This document shows positions 56,953-63,266 of a DNA stretch of 64,000 nt, piece by piece. Below the pieces are notes generated by a model. That model worked only from the letters and a program-made list of their open reading frames with translations, was not told where the DNA came from and did no database searches. The DNA comes from Leeuwenhoekiella nanhaiensis (GTDB taxonomy: Bacteria; Bacteroidota; Bacteroidia; Flavobacteriales; Flavobacteriaceae): NCBI RefSeq assembly GCF_002744755.1, contig NZ_KZ319291.1, forward strand, positions 186,001-250,000, written 5' to 3'. A program made the translations under genes and the position numbers. Positions within the stretch are counted from its first letter, which is position 1. Every line of letters starts with the position of its first letter.

Positions 56953-57933
56953 TTAACTTTTAAGATCGTACTCAAGACCTATCTGCTCACGCACGGTGTC
57001 TAACGTGCTAATCAGCATCCGGCTGAAATCATAAGTCATTATAGGACTTTCTTTTTTATCTGCTCTAAGCAGGTCTGAAAAGTGCATAATCTCAAAGTGG
57101 TAGCCTTTTGCCTGGTAACCAAAATCGTGATCTACTTTTACGCCGTCAAGAACGGTGGTGACTTTATCTTTCATATGAAACTGCCCCTGCATAATGATCA
57201 TCCCATTTTCGCAAACAAAGGTCGCTAGTGACGGAGTTTTAATTTTAATGCTGGAAGCCAGATGCGCTTTGGTGCCAGAGGAATAGGTAAAGGTCATTTC
57301 GGTTTCTTCGTCAACCCCGGTTTTTCCTATTTTGGCTTTCGCCGAAATAGTCTCGGGTTTACCTAACATAGCCAAAGCCAGAAAAGCGGGGTAAATACCA
57401 ATATCAAGCAACGAACCGCCACCTAAGTCTTTGTTGTATAACCGGCCTTCGGGATTAAAGGGAGCATCAAAACAGAAATCGGCTGTTAGTGTTTTTACAG
57501 CGCCATATTTTCCGGTGGCTAATTCATCCTGTACAAATTTAAAATGCGGCATAAAACGCGTCCAAAGGGCTTCCATCAACAGAACATCATGCTGTTTTGC
57601 GGTTGCGATCATTTCTTCAACCTGGGCTAGGTTCATTGCAAAAGGCTTTTCGCATAAAACCGCTTTCCCGTGCTGTAGGCAGAGTAAGGTATCCTGATGA
57701 TGCCGTACGTGTGGAGTTGCTATGTAAATAGCGTCGACATTGGGATCCTTAGCCAGCTTTTCATAGCTGTCGTAGCAATTCACAGCCTTATAGGTTGCCC
57801 CAAATTCATCTGCTTTTTCCTGTGAGCGTGAGGCCACGGCATAAACTTCAGAGCCTTCCACGATCTGCATATCTTTTGCAAAACTGTTAGCAATTTTTCC
57901 CAGCCCGAGAATTCCCCAGCGTATCGTTTTCAT
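56953..57933 (-). CDS. Gfo/Idh/MocA family oxidoreductase
   Basis: The 326-residue protein has the N-terminal Rossmann motif IRWGILGLGKIANSFAKDM, AIYIATPHVRHHQDTLLCLQHGKAVLCEKPFAMN (the EKP motif), and the C-terminal alpha/beta domain with GGSLLDIGIYPAFLALAMLG. These enzymes oxidise or reduce sugars and inositols with NAD(P). It is the last gene of the PIG-L/symporter operon and lies 14 nt after the symporter. The substrate is probably the sugar that the symporter imports. Confidence 0.9.
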   Translation of the reverse strand: MKTIRWGILGLGKIANSFAKDMQIVEGSEVYAVASRSQEKADEFGATYKAVNCYDSYEKLAKDPNVDAIYIATPHVRHHQDTLLCLQHGKAVLCEKPFAMNLAQVEEMIATAKQHDVLLMEALWTRFMPHFKFVQDELATGKYGAVKTLTADFCFDAPFNPEGRLYNKDLGGGSLLDIGIYPAFLALAMLGKPETISAKAKIGKTGVDEETEMTFTYSSGTKAHLASSIKIKTPSLATFVCENGMIIMQGQFHMKDKVTTVLDGVKVDHDFGYQAKGYHFEIMHFSDLLRADKKESPIMTYDFSRMLISTLDTVREQIGLEYDLKS

Positions 57934-57947
57934 AGTACTAAGTTAGT

Positions 57948-59678
57948 TTAGTTTGTTAGTTGTTTGTCTTTGGTGCCGAGGGAGCTTTGTAAAATCAGCC
58001 CCAATAAAATAACCAGACCACAACCTACAAAATTGAGCCATAAATAGGGCAGTCTGATCACTTCATAATAATCAAGGCTAAAGAGTAGAATAACCACGCC
58101 TTGTGTGATCAGAGCAGAAATGAAGACCGCTTTGGCTTTGATTTTTTTGATGAAAAAGGCACTCATAAATATCCCCAGAATCGTTCCGTAAAAAATAGAA
58201 CCAATGATATTTACCAGCTGAATGAGATTGTCAAATAAGTTTGCGGTACAGGCGATTAAAATGGCCAGAATTCCCCAGCTTAGCGTAAACCACTTGGTGG
58301 CTCCTACAAAGTGGGCTTCGTCTTTCTCCTCATCCAGATTGCGCCGGTAAAAGTCTACTGTAGTCGTAGCGGCAAGCGCATTAAGCTCTGAGGCGGTAGA
58401 TGACATCGCTGCCGAAAGTATCACAGCGAGTAATAGACCTATAAGACCACGCGGCAAATTGTTTAAGATGAAATGGATAAAGACATAATCTTTATCATTA
58501 GTTTCTACATTTTTATCAGCCTGGCTTATTACCATACGGGCTTTTTCACGAATGGCATCCTCTTTTTGATTGATTTCCCGTAAAGCCTCAGAAACTGAAA
58601 CTTCGCCGCTGCCGCCGGGCTGCCTTATCGAAGCCTCCGGAGAAGAGACAACTTTGTGACTGAGTTCAGACTTGTCTGAGCGCAATTCGTTAAGTTCGTT
58701 TTGAAGCAGGTTGTATTCCTTTTCGAATGGTGTACCCTGTACAGCCTGAGTCGCAGCAGGGTTAAAATTGAGCGGGGTAGGATTGAATTGATAAAACACA
58801 AAAACCATAACCCCAACCAGCAGAATAAAGAACTGCATCGGTACTTTTAGTATGCCGTTAAAAATCATACCCAGCTGCATTTCGCGCATCGACTTCCCGC
58901 TCAGGTAGCGCTGTACCTGACTTTGATCGGTTCCAAAATAAGAAAGCATCAGGAATGTACCACCCAAGATACCGCTCCATACAGTGTAGCGGTTATCAAA
59001 GTCAAACGAAAAGTCGAGGATGTTCATCTTATCGCTGGCTCCGGCGATTTCTAATGCATTGGCAAAATTGATGTCTTGCGGCAGGTAGCTGATGATGAGG
59101 AAAAAGGCGACAAACATCCCTAAAAAGATGACCGCCATTTGTTGCTTTTGGGTGACGGTAACTGCTTTGGTTCCTCCCGAAATGGTATAAATCACCACCA
59201 GCGAACCAATAATGATGTTTAGGGTATTGAGATCCCAGCCCAAAACGGCTGATAGAATTATGGAAGGTGCAAAAATAGTTATCCCGGCTGCCAGACCACG
59301 GGAAAGCAAAAACAAACCTGAAGCCAGAGAGCGCGTGCGCTGATCAAAGCGGTTTTCGAGATATTCATAAGCGGTATAGACATTCAGGCGGTGGTAAATG
59401 GGAATAAAGAATAGACAGATGATGACCATTGCGATGGGAAGCCCAAAATAGAACTGAACAAAGCCCATTCCGTCATTAAAAGCCTGCCCCGGTGTACTTA
59501 GAAATGTAATGGCACTGGCCTGAGTCGCCATTACTGAAAGACCTACCGTCCACCATTTCGATTCATTACCTCCGCGTATGTAATCCTGCACATTTTTACG
59601 CCCGCGCGTTCGGTAAACACCGTAGATAACGATAAAGGCGAGTGTAGCAACAAGAACAATCCAGTCTATATCTTGCAT
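57948..59678 (-). CDS. Sodium:solute symporter (SSS family)
   Basis: The 576-residue protein has about 13-14 TM segments and SSS motifs: RGRKNVQDYIRGGNESKWWTVGLSVMATQASAITFLSTPG and AVILSAAMSSTASELNALAATT (the sodium-site segment). A charged insertion at about residues 320-395 (LQNELNELRSDKSELSHKV...EINQKEDAIREKARMVI) looks like a coiled coil between two TM segments and is not in the bacterial SSS core. The start is 1 nt after the stop of a 36-codon gene. Confidence 0.9.
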   Translation of the reverse strand: MQDIDWIVLVATLAFIVIYGVYRTRGRKNVQDYIRGGNESKWWTVGLSVMATQASAITFLSTPGQAFNDGMGFVQFYFGLPIAMVIICLFFIPIYHRLNVYTAYEYLENRFDQRTRSLASGLFLLSRGLAAGITIFAPSIILSAVLGWDLNTLNIIIGSLVVIYTISGGTKAVTVTQKQQMAVIFLGMFVAFFLIISYLPQDINFANALEIAGASDKMNILDFSFDFDNRYTVWSGILGGTFLMLSYFGTDQSQVQRYLSGKSMREMQLGMIFNGILKVPMQFFILLVGVMVFVFYQFNPTPLNFNPAATQAVQGTPFEKEYNLLQNELNELRSDKSELSHKVVSSPEASIRQPGGSGEVSVSEALREINQKEDAIREKARMVISQADKNVETNDKDYVFIHFILNNLPRGLIGLLLAVILSAAMSSTASELNALAATTTVDFYRRNLDEEKDEAHFVGATKWFTLSWGILAILIACTANLFDNLIQLVNIIGSIFYGTILGIFMSAFFIKKIKAKAVFISALITQGVVILLFSLDYYEVIRLPYLWLNFVGCGLVILLGLILQSSLGTKDKQLTN

Positions 59679-59679
59679 A

Positions 59680-59790
59680 TCAGGAGGCGTAAGTATTCAT
59701 AAGTATAAAAAAAACAATGATGTACACCACGTTCAGCACGAGTACAAGCGTGTAAAAATTAGACCAGCCTTCTCGTTTTGGTTCTATCAT
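59680..59790 (-). CDS. 36-aa single-TM peptide between PIG-L deacetylase and symporter genes
   Basis: ATG at 59790 to TGA at 59680 encodes MIEPKREGWSNFY, a hydrophobic TM (TLVLVLNVVYIIVFFILM) and NTYAS. Its ATG overlaps the TGA stop of the deacetylase gene (ATGA) and its own stop is 1 nt from the symporter ATG, so the three genes are read in a chain of coupled starts. A positively charged, short N-terminus before the TM suggests a membrane accessory peptide of the symporter. Too small for standard gene calls; the exact packing supports it. Confidence 0.75.
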   Translation of the reverse strand: MIEPKREGWSNFYTLVLVLNVVYIIVFFILMNTYAS

Positions 59791-62282
59791 TGTTTGATTT
59801 TTTGGTCGTTCTTTCCTATCGAAAGCATATTGGCAAAAAGCCGGTACGCCCCAGAAACTCCGGCGGGTAGCTCTCTAAAAAAGCTGAGGCCGGTATAAAT
59901 ATAATGACCTTCTCCGTATTTAGCTATCAGTAAACTCCCTTCGCTGGGTTTTTCGCCCTCGTCGCCAATGGAAATCACCGGCTCGTAAGACGCGTCGTAT
60001 TGATCCGGAAAATACAGACCGCGCTCCTGCACCCAGCCTTCAAAATCCTTTTGGGTTATTTTATTGGGATAGTTTAAAACCTCTGCATTGGGATCGAGGA
60101 TTTTTACTTCTGCGGTTTCATCGGTAACCCGGTCGCTGCTTAACTCAAGTGGGTAAGGCCCCAGATTTGGGAAATCAAAACCCCGGGCGGTATTGTACTG
60201 TACCACCATGGTCCCTCCATTTTTTACATAATCGAGCAGGATGGGTTGTTTATACTGAAGTTCTTCAACGACGTTGTATGCCCGTACACCCATTACCACA
60301 GCGTCAAATTCCGCAAGATTTTCTGCAGTGATTTGATCTGGATCTACCGTCACAACCGTATACCCTATTTGCTGTAAACTTTCGGGGATCACGTCTCCGG
60401 CGCCTGCGATATAGCCTATATAATTTCCTTTTTTAGCGATATCTAGCCGTACCAGTTTATTGGTGGAGGGCAGTACCAGAGTTTGTAAGGGGATGTGATC
60501 GTAATCTATCGTGACCGTTTTCGTAGTGATGGTCTTTCCATTGATTTGCAGTTGCGGTTTGAGTTCGCCCTCGCTGGCATTTGCAGGTGGCGTAACCGTA
60601 AAATCAATTCCTTTGGTTTCCCCTTTCTGAGCAATGCTAATTTGCTGAGGTGTGCTTACTTGCCAGCCCTGTGGCACCTTTAGCGCAACCTGAGCCTTAA
60701 GATTGGAAATATAAGCCGTGACTTCAGCGGTAATGGTTTTGGGTTGCGCATTCGCGAAAATGATCACCGGATCTTTCACGGCTACCGAAGCTTCCGGAAC
60801 TATCTCGAAAGGCTCATAAACCTCTCCATCTACACGGTCGTTGTATTTGTACACCAAATCAGTCGCTATCGGGATAAACTGATCTCCCATTTGCAGATTG
60901 AAAATCGCTTTAAACTCCCGGGGTGTTTCGGGCAGACCAATGAGTCTTTGATCGGTAACCTTATACATTCCTACCGAACCTTCTTCTTTCAGCCAATACG
61001 CCGTTGTAAGATCGGCAGCACCGGTATTGATGTTTACCTGTTTTTCAAAGTCGCTATTGAATACCAGGTTTTCTAATACTTCAATTTTTTCGCCGCCAGG
61101 CAATACAACACTTTGCAGCGTTATAGGGAATTCACTACGGTTGATGGCTTCCAGATTGAGGCTTATGTTTTCATTAGCCACTGCGGTTTGTTGGCCTGTC
61201 GCGGCTTCTACATACAGACCTGCACAGGCTTTGATGAGCTGGGTAAGTTGTTTGGTTTTGAGTTCGCGCCAGTGTGCATCTTCCAGATTTTGAATAAGTG
61301 GATAGGCTTTAAGCAGACCCGGTAAACTCGCCGCCGGATTTTTAAAATCGTAATTTGCTTCAACCTCATTTAGAATTTCGCCGATTGCAGCACCGCCCTG
61401 AACGCGATTCCATGAAGTGTCAATCCCTTCGAAAAGATTTCCGTTTGAAGGCAGGTCTCCTTTAAGCAGTTCGAGGTATTCTATTTGCTCGCCACGCGAA
61501 CCGGTATTGCCAAAACCCTGCGATTTATGCTGACTGCGGCTGAGGGCCGAAATTTCGGTATTGCTGAGTCCATAAGCAGGGTAGTAGCCGCCCACGTCAA
61601 CTGAAACCAGATTGTCTTTGTTGGCTTCTTCAAACGCTTCACGGCTGCCGTAAAACCACCAAGACGTGTTGAAAAATAGGCGTTTGGGTTGCCAGGTTTC
61701 GGTATACTTCAACTGATCGGGAAAAACCGAAGCATCGCCTACCAAATCAAAAGCCTGTACGCCCAGCATCGCAGAGAGCGTATGATGTCCGTGAGTGCTT
61801 CCGGGAGAGCGATGGTCAAAACGATTGATGATTACATCGGGTTTAAAATTGCGAATCGCCCAAACCACGTCGCGTAGCACTTCATCTTTCTCCCAAAACT
61901 CCAGCGTTTCTTTGGGGTTTTTAGAATAACCAAAATCATTTGCGCGCGTAAAACGCTGTTCGCCACCATCGGTGCGGCGTGCCGCCAGCAATTCCTGCGT
62001 ACGGATGACGCCCAGAAGTTCTCTGATTTCAGGACCAATTAAATTTTGCCCTCCATCACCCCGTGTAAGGGCAAGGTAGCCGGTGCGTGCGTGAACGTCG
62101 TTGACCAAATACGAAATTAATGCGGTGTTCTCATCGTCAGGATGCGCCGCAAGGTATAAGGCGGTGCCTAAAAAATTAAGCTGCTGCAGCTGCTCATAAA
62201 TTTCAGAAGAGGATGGCTTTTTGGGTTTTTGAGCGTGTAACTGTAAGGAAACACAACAGAGCATAGCGATTAAAAAGCGCAT
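59787..62282 (-). CDS. Exported PIG-L family deacetylase (large form)
   Basis: Start placed at 62282: this ATG begins a signal peptide (FLIAMLCCVSLQLHAQ), and a -7 element (62318-62325) lies inside the longer frame that begins at 62348. The protein of about 831 residues has a PIG-L domain (YLAAHPDDENTALI for zinc binding; STHGHHTLSA) to about 280, then beta-domains and a C-terminal GATase1-like part (EFDAVVMGVRAYNVVEELQYK, NGGTMVVQYNTARGF). PIG-L proteins remove N-acetyl groups from sugars such as GlcNAc. With a symporter and dehydrogenase it may process an N-acetylated glycoside in the periplasm. Confidence 0.87.
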   Translation of the reverse strand: MRFLIAMLCCVSLQLHAQKPKKPSSSEIYEQLQQLNFLGTALYLAAHPDDENTALISYLVNDVHARTGYLALTRGDGGQNLIGPEIRELLGVIRTQELLAARRTDGGEQRFTRANDFGYSKNPKETLEFWEKDEVLRDVVWAIRNFKPDVIINRFDHRSPGSTHGHHTLSAMLGVQAFDLVGDASVFPDQLKYTETWQPKRLFFNTSWWFYGSREAFEEANKDNLVSVDVGGYYPAYGLSNTEISALSRSQHKSQGFGNTGSRGEQIEYLELLKGDLPSNGNLFEGIDTSWNRVQGGAAIGEILNEVEANYDFKNPAASLPGLLKAYPLIQNLEDAHWRELKTKQLTQLIKACAGLYVEAATGQQTAVANENISLNLEAINRSEFPITLQSVVLPGGEKIEVLENLVFNSDFEKQVNINTGAADLTTAYWLKEEGSVGMYKVTDQRLIGLPETPREFKAIFNLQMGDQFIPIATDLVYKYNDRVDGEVYEPFEIVPEASVAVKDPVIIFANAQPKTITAEVTAYISNLKAQVALKVPQGWQVSTPQQISIAQKGETKGIDFTVTPPANASEGELKPQLQINGKTITTKTVTIDYDHIPLQTLVLPSTNKLVRLDIAKKGNYIGYIAGAGDVIPESLQQIGYTVVTVDPDQITAENLAEFDAVVMGVRAYNVVEELQYKQPILLDYVKNGGTMVVQYNTARGFDFPNLGPYPLELSSDRVTDETAEVKILDPNAEVLNYPNKITQKDFEGWVQERGLYFPDQYDASYEPVISIGDEGEKPSEGSLLIAKYGEGHYIYTGLSFFRELPAGVSGAYRLFANMLSIGKNDQKIKQ

Positions 62283-62317
62283 GATAAGGTCAGGTTTAGT
62301 GATTTTTGAGATGCTCT

Positions 62318-62325
62318 CAAAGATA
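62318..62325 (-). promoter_or_regulatory. -7 element of the PIG-L operon
   Basis: The complement of 62318-62325 reads TATCTTTG, an exact TAnnTTTG match 35 nt before the chosen ATG. No good TTG is present at 19 bp. Confidence 0.55.
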
Positions 62326-62372
62326 GGTAAAACGCTATCTAAGCCCATTCTATTAAAGCTTCTTTAACAATT

Positions 62373-63266
62373 CTAAAGCCCCAGACTATCTCGTAAGGAA
62401 GTGAATTTTTCAGCGTTCTGTTTCCAATAGGGCGTTTTAAGCGATTTGATGCGTGTGGCGGTAGCGGTCATCTCGCTATTTCCGCTAGGAAAACGCTCGG
62501 TCCAGCCGGTGATGGCGTAGGGGAAAGCCTTCTCAAAATTGATGGTAAGCGTGCGGCTGAGCTCAGGGTAATCAATGCTGTAGCTGCCGTTTGACAAGGT
62601 GCAAACCGCTTTGTAAGGTTTGAGTTCGAGATGGTGCAGACGCAGGTATTCAATAGATGGAATGATCTTTTTTGTTCCCTGAGGCAACTCCTTGGGGTCA
62701 ATCCGCAGAAGTGCCCAGATTTCATCTTCAACCGTACCACGGGGTAAGGTAAATTTTTGATCGGCTTCTCCTTCAAAATAGGTGTGTGATTCTACGTAAT
62801 ATTCCCCGCGATTATTGAGCTGGGTGTACATTTGCCCGCACCATTCCTGAGTGCTGTTAGTGACTTTGATGGCGTGATTTTTGGCGTTTAAAGGCAAAAA
62901 GGAACTCGTCATAATCGAGTAGGGGTAGATGCCCGTCACGTAATTTTTGGTGGTATTCAGTTTTAAAACCGGAATATTATCGGGGTTTTGCGCATTGGCT
63001 TTTACCTGAACCTTTGGTAGAAAATCTTCGGTAACAAAGATCAAAACCGCCTCACCACTGCGCAATTCGCCATATCGGGGTTGTTTTAATTGATAGGAAG
63101 TGATTTCGGCTTCGCCGGAATACCAATAGTCTTTAAATTCCTGAGAAAGCTGGCGGTCTTCAGCGCGGGCTACGGACTCAAAATTCTCCTGATTTTTACA
63201 CGAAAAGAGTAGCAATGTGAACAGGAACAGGAATAACGAACTCAAGGAAAACAGCTTTTTTTGCAT
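62373..63266 (-). CDS. Lipoprotein of unknown function adjacent to maf
   Basis: The 297-residue protein has a lipoprotein signal (FLFTLLLFSC) and a soluble domain conserved in flavobacteria (AEDRQLSQEFKDYWYSGEAEITSYQL; AVLIFVTEDFLPKVQVKA; WCGQMYTQLNNRGEYYVESHTYFEGEA; ITGWTERFP). Homologues are often labelled septum formation inhibitor Maf because they stand beside maf, but no Maf motif is present here. Function unknown; anchored in a membrane facing the periplasm or surface. It lies 32 nt after maf. Confidence 0.8.
   Translation of the reverse strand: MQKKLFSLSSLFLFLFTLLLFSCKNQENFESVARAEDRQLSQEFKDYWYSGEAEITSYQLKQPRYGELRSGEAVLIFVTEDFLPKVQVKANAQNPDNIPVLKLNTTKNYVTGIYPYSIMTSSFLPLNAKNHAIKVTNSTQEWCGQMYTQLNNRGEYYVESHTYFEGEADQKFTLPRGTVEDEIWALLRIDPKELPQGTKKIIPSIEYLRLHHLELKPYKAVCTLSNGSYSIDYPELSRTLTINFEKAFPYAITGWTERFPSGNSEMTATATRIKSLKTPYWKQNAEKFTSLRDSLGL

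Follow-up and report, generated by a model that had tools for sequence, protein, structure and literature searches.

An unnamed single-helix peptide family, encoded almost directly before one type of SSS symporter in many Bacteroidota genomes, is probably a helper part

Introduction

The human symporter SGLT2, of the SSS/SLC5 family, has a single-helix partner, MAP17 (PDZK1IP1), which has been called essential for it and whose helix packs on TM13 (described in part of PMC10803289). The same part of that paper states that MAP17 greatly raises SGLT2 activity and that its loss lowers thermal stability, and the authors there favour a role for MAP17 in folding or localization over a direct effect on activity.

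Small membrane proteins beside SSS symporters are known from other families. DUF4212 proteins (PF13937/TIGR03647), the small subunits of VC_2705-type symporters, lie just upstream of an SSS symporter and have 79 model positions with two hydrophobic stretches. YhdT (DUF997) is encoded beside PanF, DUF3311 proteins are found with MctP, and both YhdT and the DUF3311 proteins are two-helix proteins. A DUF3311 gene has been drawn with an SSS symporter gene and is repressed together with it (part of PMC9100948). AcrZ, MgtS and MgtR are micropeptides that act on membrane transporters of other classes, and the part of PMC10710835 that treats them mentions no helix of this kind partnering an SSS symporter.

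Among the titles and abstract openings that our literature search returned, none described a micropeptide of an SSS symporter, and a term search of part of a 2021 review of prokaryotic SSS transporters (PMC7918813) found none of the terms subunit, accessory and small protein. The large small-protein catalogue of PMC11364881 may include the sequence of the peptide treated here without a function. As a family, we did not find this peptide in print in these searches, and it may work as the known small transporter partners do. Here we describe the peptide, its neighbours and its occurrence in Bacteroidota, where it lies in many genomes almost directly before one symporter type, of which it is probably a helper part.

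Results

The window, which is the whole stretch of 64,000 nucleotides from Leeuwenhoekiella nanhaiensis analysed here, carries the gene on the minus strand at 59680..59790 (36 codons plus stop). Read from 59790 to 59680, its translation is MIEPKREGWSNFYTLVLVLNVVYIIVFFILMNTYAS. The peptide has one hydrophobic stretch and a charged N-terminus. Directly upstream is a PIG-L/LmbE-type deacetylase with a C-terminal NPCBM-associated domain (59787..62348, minus strand; PF02585 and PF10633 above cut-off), for which the ATG at 62282 is more likely the true start, opening a stretch that by eye resembles a signal peptide. The start codon of the peptide and the PIG-L stop codon share the four nucleotides ATGA at 59787..59790, which suggests that translation of the peptide is coupled to that of PIG-L. 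At the other end, the TGA of the peptide is followed by a single T and then by the ATG of an SSS/SLC5-family symporter of 576 amino acids (57948..59678, minus strand), a gap of 1 nt. The original prediction had placed the peptide in just this way, with 4 nt shared between its start and the PIG-L stop and 1 nt between its stop and the symporter, and its coordinates, strand and length were exact.

A Gfo/Idh/MocA oxidoreductase (56953..57933, minus strand; PF01408) follows 14 nt past the symporter stop, a spacing from which it probably shares an operon with the symporter. Along the minus strand come, in turn, genes for a Maf protein, a protein of no clear family, PIG-L, the peptide, the symporter and the oxidoreductase; because these genes follow one another with short gaps, the whole run from Maf to the oxidoreductase likely forms one operon. 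The protein between Maf and PIG-L (62373-63266, minus strand; 297 amino acids) has a lipoprotein-like start, with SC after a hydrophobic stretch (by eye), and Pfam gave no convincing match to it.

The symporter scores above the curated cut-offs of PF00474 and TIGR00813, and an orthologue (L226) was modelled with the SSS fold. No equivalog among the NCBIfam and Pfam matches listed for it passes its cut-off; scores were 47.3 bits against the VC_2705-type model (TIGR03648; cut-off 320.75) and 54 bits against the PanF model (cut-off 328). Among solved structures, sequence comparison places 5nv9 (a sialic acid symporter) nearest, together with the iodide, multivitamin and monocarboxylate transporters and the SGLTs. 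The fold comparison of the L226 model likewise placed a sialic acid symporter closest (5nva; Z 41.7, rmsd 2.5, 464 residues aligned). The neighbouring deacetylase and oxidoreductase suggest a sugar or an amino sugar as substrate. We numbered the helices TM0-TM12 for this analysis. Alignments of the symporter to SGLT2 chains end at residue 571 or earlier of the 672-residue chain. TM13, the last helix of SGLT2, presumably lies beyond that point, and the bacterial symporter seems to stop short of an equivalent helix. Between TM7 and TM8, ~80-90 residues are inserted in the symporter (residues ~305-395). In the L226 model this insertion forms two helices (358-385 and 388-419 in the combined chain of peptide and symporter, pLDDT mostly > 90), like a hairpin that would lie outside the membrane.

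The window peptide itself matched no Pfam and no NCBIfam family at E <= 1. When 48 of its relatives were compared with Pfam, no family matched more than three of the 48 among the 25 of 38 families listed (best E 0.0011), and with NCBIfam no family matched more than two (best E 0.0027); we took these scattered matches as chance. DUF997 and DUF3311 were not matched by the window peptide at E <= 1, nor were they among the 25 of 38 families listed for the relatives. A profile of 21 relatives gave no match at E <= 1 to PDB chains, a set that may or may not include MAP17. The position just upstream of an SSS symporter is shared with DUF4212, but the window peptide has one hydrophobic stretch where DUF4212 has two, and a relation was rejected after hhalign of the 48-member profile to eight DUF4212 sequences gave a probability of 2.4%. 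The same genome also encodes a DUF4212 protein (above cut-off) 40 nt upstream of a second SSS symporter (L046, G000:C1:320500-325500; L258), so this genome apparently has small symporter subunits of two unrelated kinds.

Among relatives, the frame was matched in 30 of 40 genomes at E <= 1. Five of these matches (L026-L030) lacked the genomic context and were counted as chance, leaving 25. The peptide is carried by twenty-four of the 25 own-family genomes searched (the exception is G015), and the twenty-fifth true match, G027, comes from another family. The symporter follows the peptide in all 25 loci (L001-L025) at a spacing of -14 to +19 nt, within 3 nt in 20 of them, and PIG-L precedes it in 24, the stretch read for L024 being without PIG-L. 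Among the own-family genomes listed in the phylum search, 39 of 41 have the peptide. The original prediction had pointed to orthologous symporters as the place to look, where a disrupted or absent frame would speak against it. With symporters alone as the query, the peptide was upstream of the orthologous symporter in 80/80 named loci; these 80 matched best among 573 confirmed stretches and are therefore close relatives. The nearest named records are from Leeuwenhoekiella (L173, L174).

Comparing synonymous with non-synonymous change, as had also been proposed, gave a pooled dN/dS of ~0.12 for the peptide (pS 0.604, pN 0.136) over 109 non-independent pairs, since some of the loci (e.g. L002, L173) seem to come from the same genome recorded twice. 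Differences fell on codon positions 1, 2 and 3 in the numbers 758, 317 and 1546. Between this genome and a congener (L001/L002) the peptide gene has 13 synonymous differences and no replacement, and between L001 and L003 there are seven synonymous differences and one replacement. On these substitution patterns, the frame is a protein-coding gene under purifying selection.

Across set 1 (157 relatives), the peptides are 31-54 amino acids long (median 36), with on average 3.5 K+R residues before the hydrophobic core and 0.4 after it. In 153 of the 154 relatives that could be anchored, K+R is higher on the N side, and in the remaining one it is equal; the single transmembrane helix with a charged N-terminus foreseen in the original prediction holds on both counts. 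Because these charges cluster on the N side, the positive-inside rule predicts an N-in/C-out orientation. The conserved positions are spaced 3-4 apart (W9, Y13, V16, N20, Y23/I24, F27, M31, Y34). Substitutions occur among them: N20 is Leu in most of set 2, M31 is most commonly Thr elsewhere and Y34 is mostly Phe. The periodicity of conservation is strongest at 100 degrees per residue (permutation p <= 1e-4 in both set 1 and set 2, the latter of 98 relatives), and a single conserved helix face of this kind suggests packing against a partner. The very tight packing of the gene, with its start and stop overlaps, would also suit a leader or spacer frame that mainly couples the translation of PIG-L and the symporter and whose product is unimportant. 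We hold this to be very unlikely in view of the selection on individual residues, the periodicity of the helix face and the conservation of the peptide even at loci where it precedes no symporter.

In a sample of the phylum, 89 of 395 genomes matched the peptide at E <= 0.01; one of these matches, in G247, falls within a longer frame of 498 aa and probably arose by chance. A broader peptide profile matched 168 of 395 genomes of the class at E <= 1e-4. Starting instead from the symporter, we found it at E <= 1e-100 in 75 of 149 class genomes, at 77 places, of which 70 were read; one (L125) lies at a contig end, hence 69 could be assessed. In 62 of the 69, a peptide frame of at least 10 bits ended no more than 300 nt before the symporter. 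Most of these frames overlap the symporter by 4 nt, three lie 41, 63 and 190 nt away, and a few are without a clear ATG start (e.g. L135, L129). Since some of these loci went into the profile, its scores are partly circular; the opposite-strand control is not, and there the same profile gave nothing at >= 10 bits across the 70 symporter loci (highest 4.3). A chance open frame, which only the short length of the gene would suggest, is refuted by this control together with the conservation across relatives and the selection, and we give it next to no credence. That such exact packing would hardly arise by chance, as the original prediction argued, is borne out by the wide conservation and the mostly synonymous codon differences.

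Seven of the 69 loci have no peptide upstream of the symporter (L091, L120, L122, L126, L127, L141, L145), and five of the seven genomes (G537, G439, G478, G441, G480) contain no convincing peptide anywhere. A further genome without a convincing copy, G509, belongs to the same genus as three of those five. All six have both PIG-L and the symporter. Since genomes with the symporter exist without a convincing copy of the peptide, it appears to be dispensable in some lineages. L120, L122 and L126, like genome G509, come from genus g204, and these natural deletions, like L141 and L145, are useful for comparison.

Starting from the peptide, the symporter was directly downstream in 100 of 100 chosen class loci, 27 of which come from genomes already read in L113-L152. 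The 4-nt overlap, which in the window joins PIG-L and the peptide, is in other families of the class usually found instead at the junction of peptide and symporter (84/100). The 100 loci were chosen from the matches of the 168-genome profile with several omitted; when 10 of the omitted loci were then read, seven had the symporter, two (L373, L379) had PIG-L and the peptide only, and one (L374) lay at a contig end. The symporter was not found in plasmid records at E <= 1e-60.

With PIG-L on one side and the symporter on the other, either neighbour might be the partner. The peptide could serve PIG-L, for example by anchoring the secreted deacetylase in the membrane or by helping to export it, or link PIG-L with the symporter, and the symporter would then be a mere neighbour in the operon. 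PIG-L is indeed upstream within 2.6 kb in 74 of the 80 named loci; the other six, all from Tenacibaculum, have peptide and symporter with PIG-L absent within that distance. Four genomes from two genera (G524, G603; G531, G607) have the peptide behind PIG-L and the symporter outside the stretch read (L265, L266, L373, L379), and therefore PIG-L keeps some claim as a possible partner. In all four the symporter exists, on another contig. Against a role with PIG-L, in nine of nine genomes of family f38 (G299, G224, G197, G127, G334, G165, G103, G319, G130) the peptide lies before the gene that best matches the symporter (40-44% identity), and PIG-L gave no match there at E <= 1e-20. We also searched 24 PIG-L-bearing genomes because PIG-L did not adjoin the symporter in them, and in 16 (G126, G349, G510, G538, G535, G496, G075, G492, G539, G432, G456, G522, G450, G488, G519, G227) PIG-L was on another contig and the peptide was with the symporter. 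PIG-L, moreover, appears by eye to have a signal peptide of its own. Because the peptide stays with the symporter where PIG-L is absent (nine genomes) or on another contig (16), we favour the symporter as the better partner, though not as the proven one, and consider a primary role with PIG-L unlikely. No peptide was seen in a genome without such a symporter among the genomes examined, a set that is not exhaustive.

Peptide variants that end in FNLP, FNLPQ or FNTP precede a more distant SSS symporter in genomes of one other family that have no PIG-L match (L153, L154, L160, L161, L164-L166, L170, L171).

In set 1 (157 pairs, effective 74-76), covariation paired N20 and Y23 of the peptide best with L488, I492, I495 and T499 of the symporter (window numbering), which form one face of a symporter helix. 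The score at rank 1 was reached by one of 40 shuffles and the scores at ranks 5 to 50 by none. In set 2 (98 pairs), the top 20 contained none of them, and the scores stayed in the range of the shuffles, with rank 1 reached by 32 of 40. With the sets pooled, some of the pairs returned, with rank 1 reached by nine of 40 shuffles, rank 10 by 13 and rank 20 by none. We set this contact site aside, as the signal of set 1 failed replication in set 2. AlphaFold2, given the L226 peptide and symporter as one read-through chain, modelled the symporter fairly well (mean pLDDT 78.5, pTM 0.76); residues 11-34 came out as a helix with a pLDDT of ~55-65. The rows of the structure comparison for this joined chain start at residue 38 or later, save one that starts at 13.

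Discussion

The peptide is probably a single-pass protein of the inner membrane that serves the adjacent SSS (SLC5-type) sodium symporter as an accessory subunit. Coupled translation would produce it shortly before the symporter, and it would insert N-in/C-out. Its conserved face (W9, Y13, V16, N20, Y23/I24, F27, M31, Y34) would then pack on the symporter, at a site and with a binding that we infer, and the packed helix may help the symporter to fold, to stay stable in the membrane or to go through its cycle, in the way that MAP17 serves SGLT2. For the small symporter subunit that the original prediction had suggested, the linkage and the one-sided helix count in favour and the four loci with PIG-L only and the lineages without the peptide count against; binding and an effect on transport are what such a subunit would be expected to show.

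The reading as an accessory helix follows the precedent of MAP17 and SGLT2, where a single-helix accessory protein serves a symporter of the same SSS/SLC5 family (PMC10803289). The likeness is one of working, and we claim no kinship. The two systems also differ, in that MAP17 packs on TM13 and the bacterial symporter appears to stop short of that helix. The orientation of MAP17 in the membrane is moreover opposite to that predicted for the window peptide. On a bolder and tentative reading, to which we give only a minor chance, a whole subfamily of Bacteroidota SSS symporters would be two-component, with a 13-helix core that has no TM13 and an independently arisen, co-translated micropeptide that supplies in trans a detached helix running in-to-out, as TM13 would, as the bacterial counterpart of the TM13/MAP17 region of the SGLTs.

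The peptide could instead regulate the activity or turnover of the symporter, as an inhibitor or as an adaptor for degradation by a membrane protease in the manner of MgtR or MgtS, and not be a structural subunit. Small proteins of the AcrZ, MgtS and MgtR type are usually regulated separately. The peptide is encoded with the symporter and is therefore probably made simultaneously with it, as would be expected more of a constitutive subunit than of a switch. Although small membrane proteins that regulate transporters have been described (part of PMC10710835), a regulator seems to us improbable here.

If the peptide is an accessory subunit, a common bacterial sodium symporter lineage has an overlooked second subunit, and attempts to purify or reconstitute such symporters in the absence of the peptide could fail or give misleading results. 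What a single-helix partner does is still debated for SGLT2 and MAP17 (part of PMC10803289), and the peptide and its symporter would then offer a small, tractable bacterial system in which to study single-helix partners of SLC5-fold transporters.
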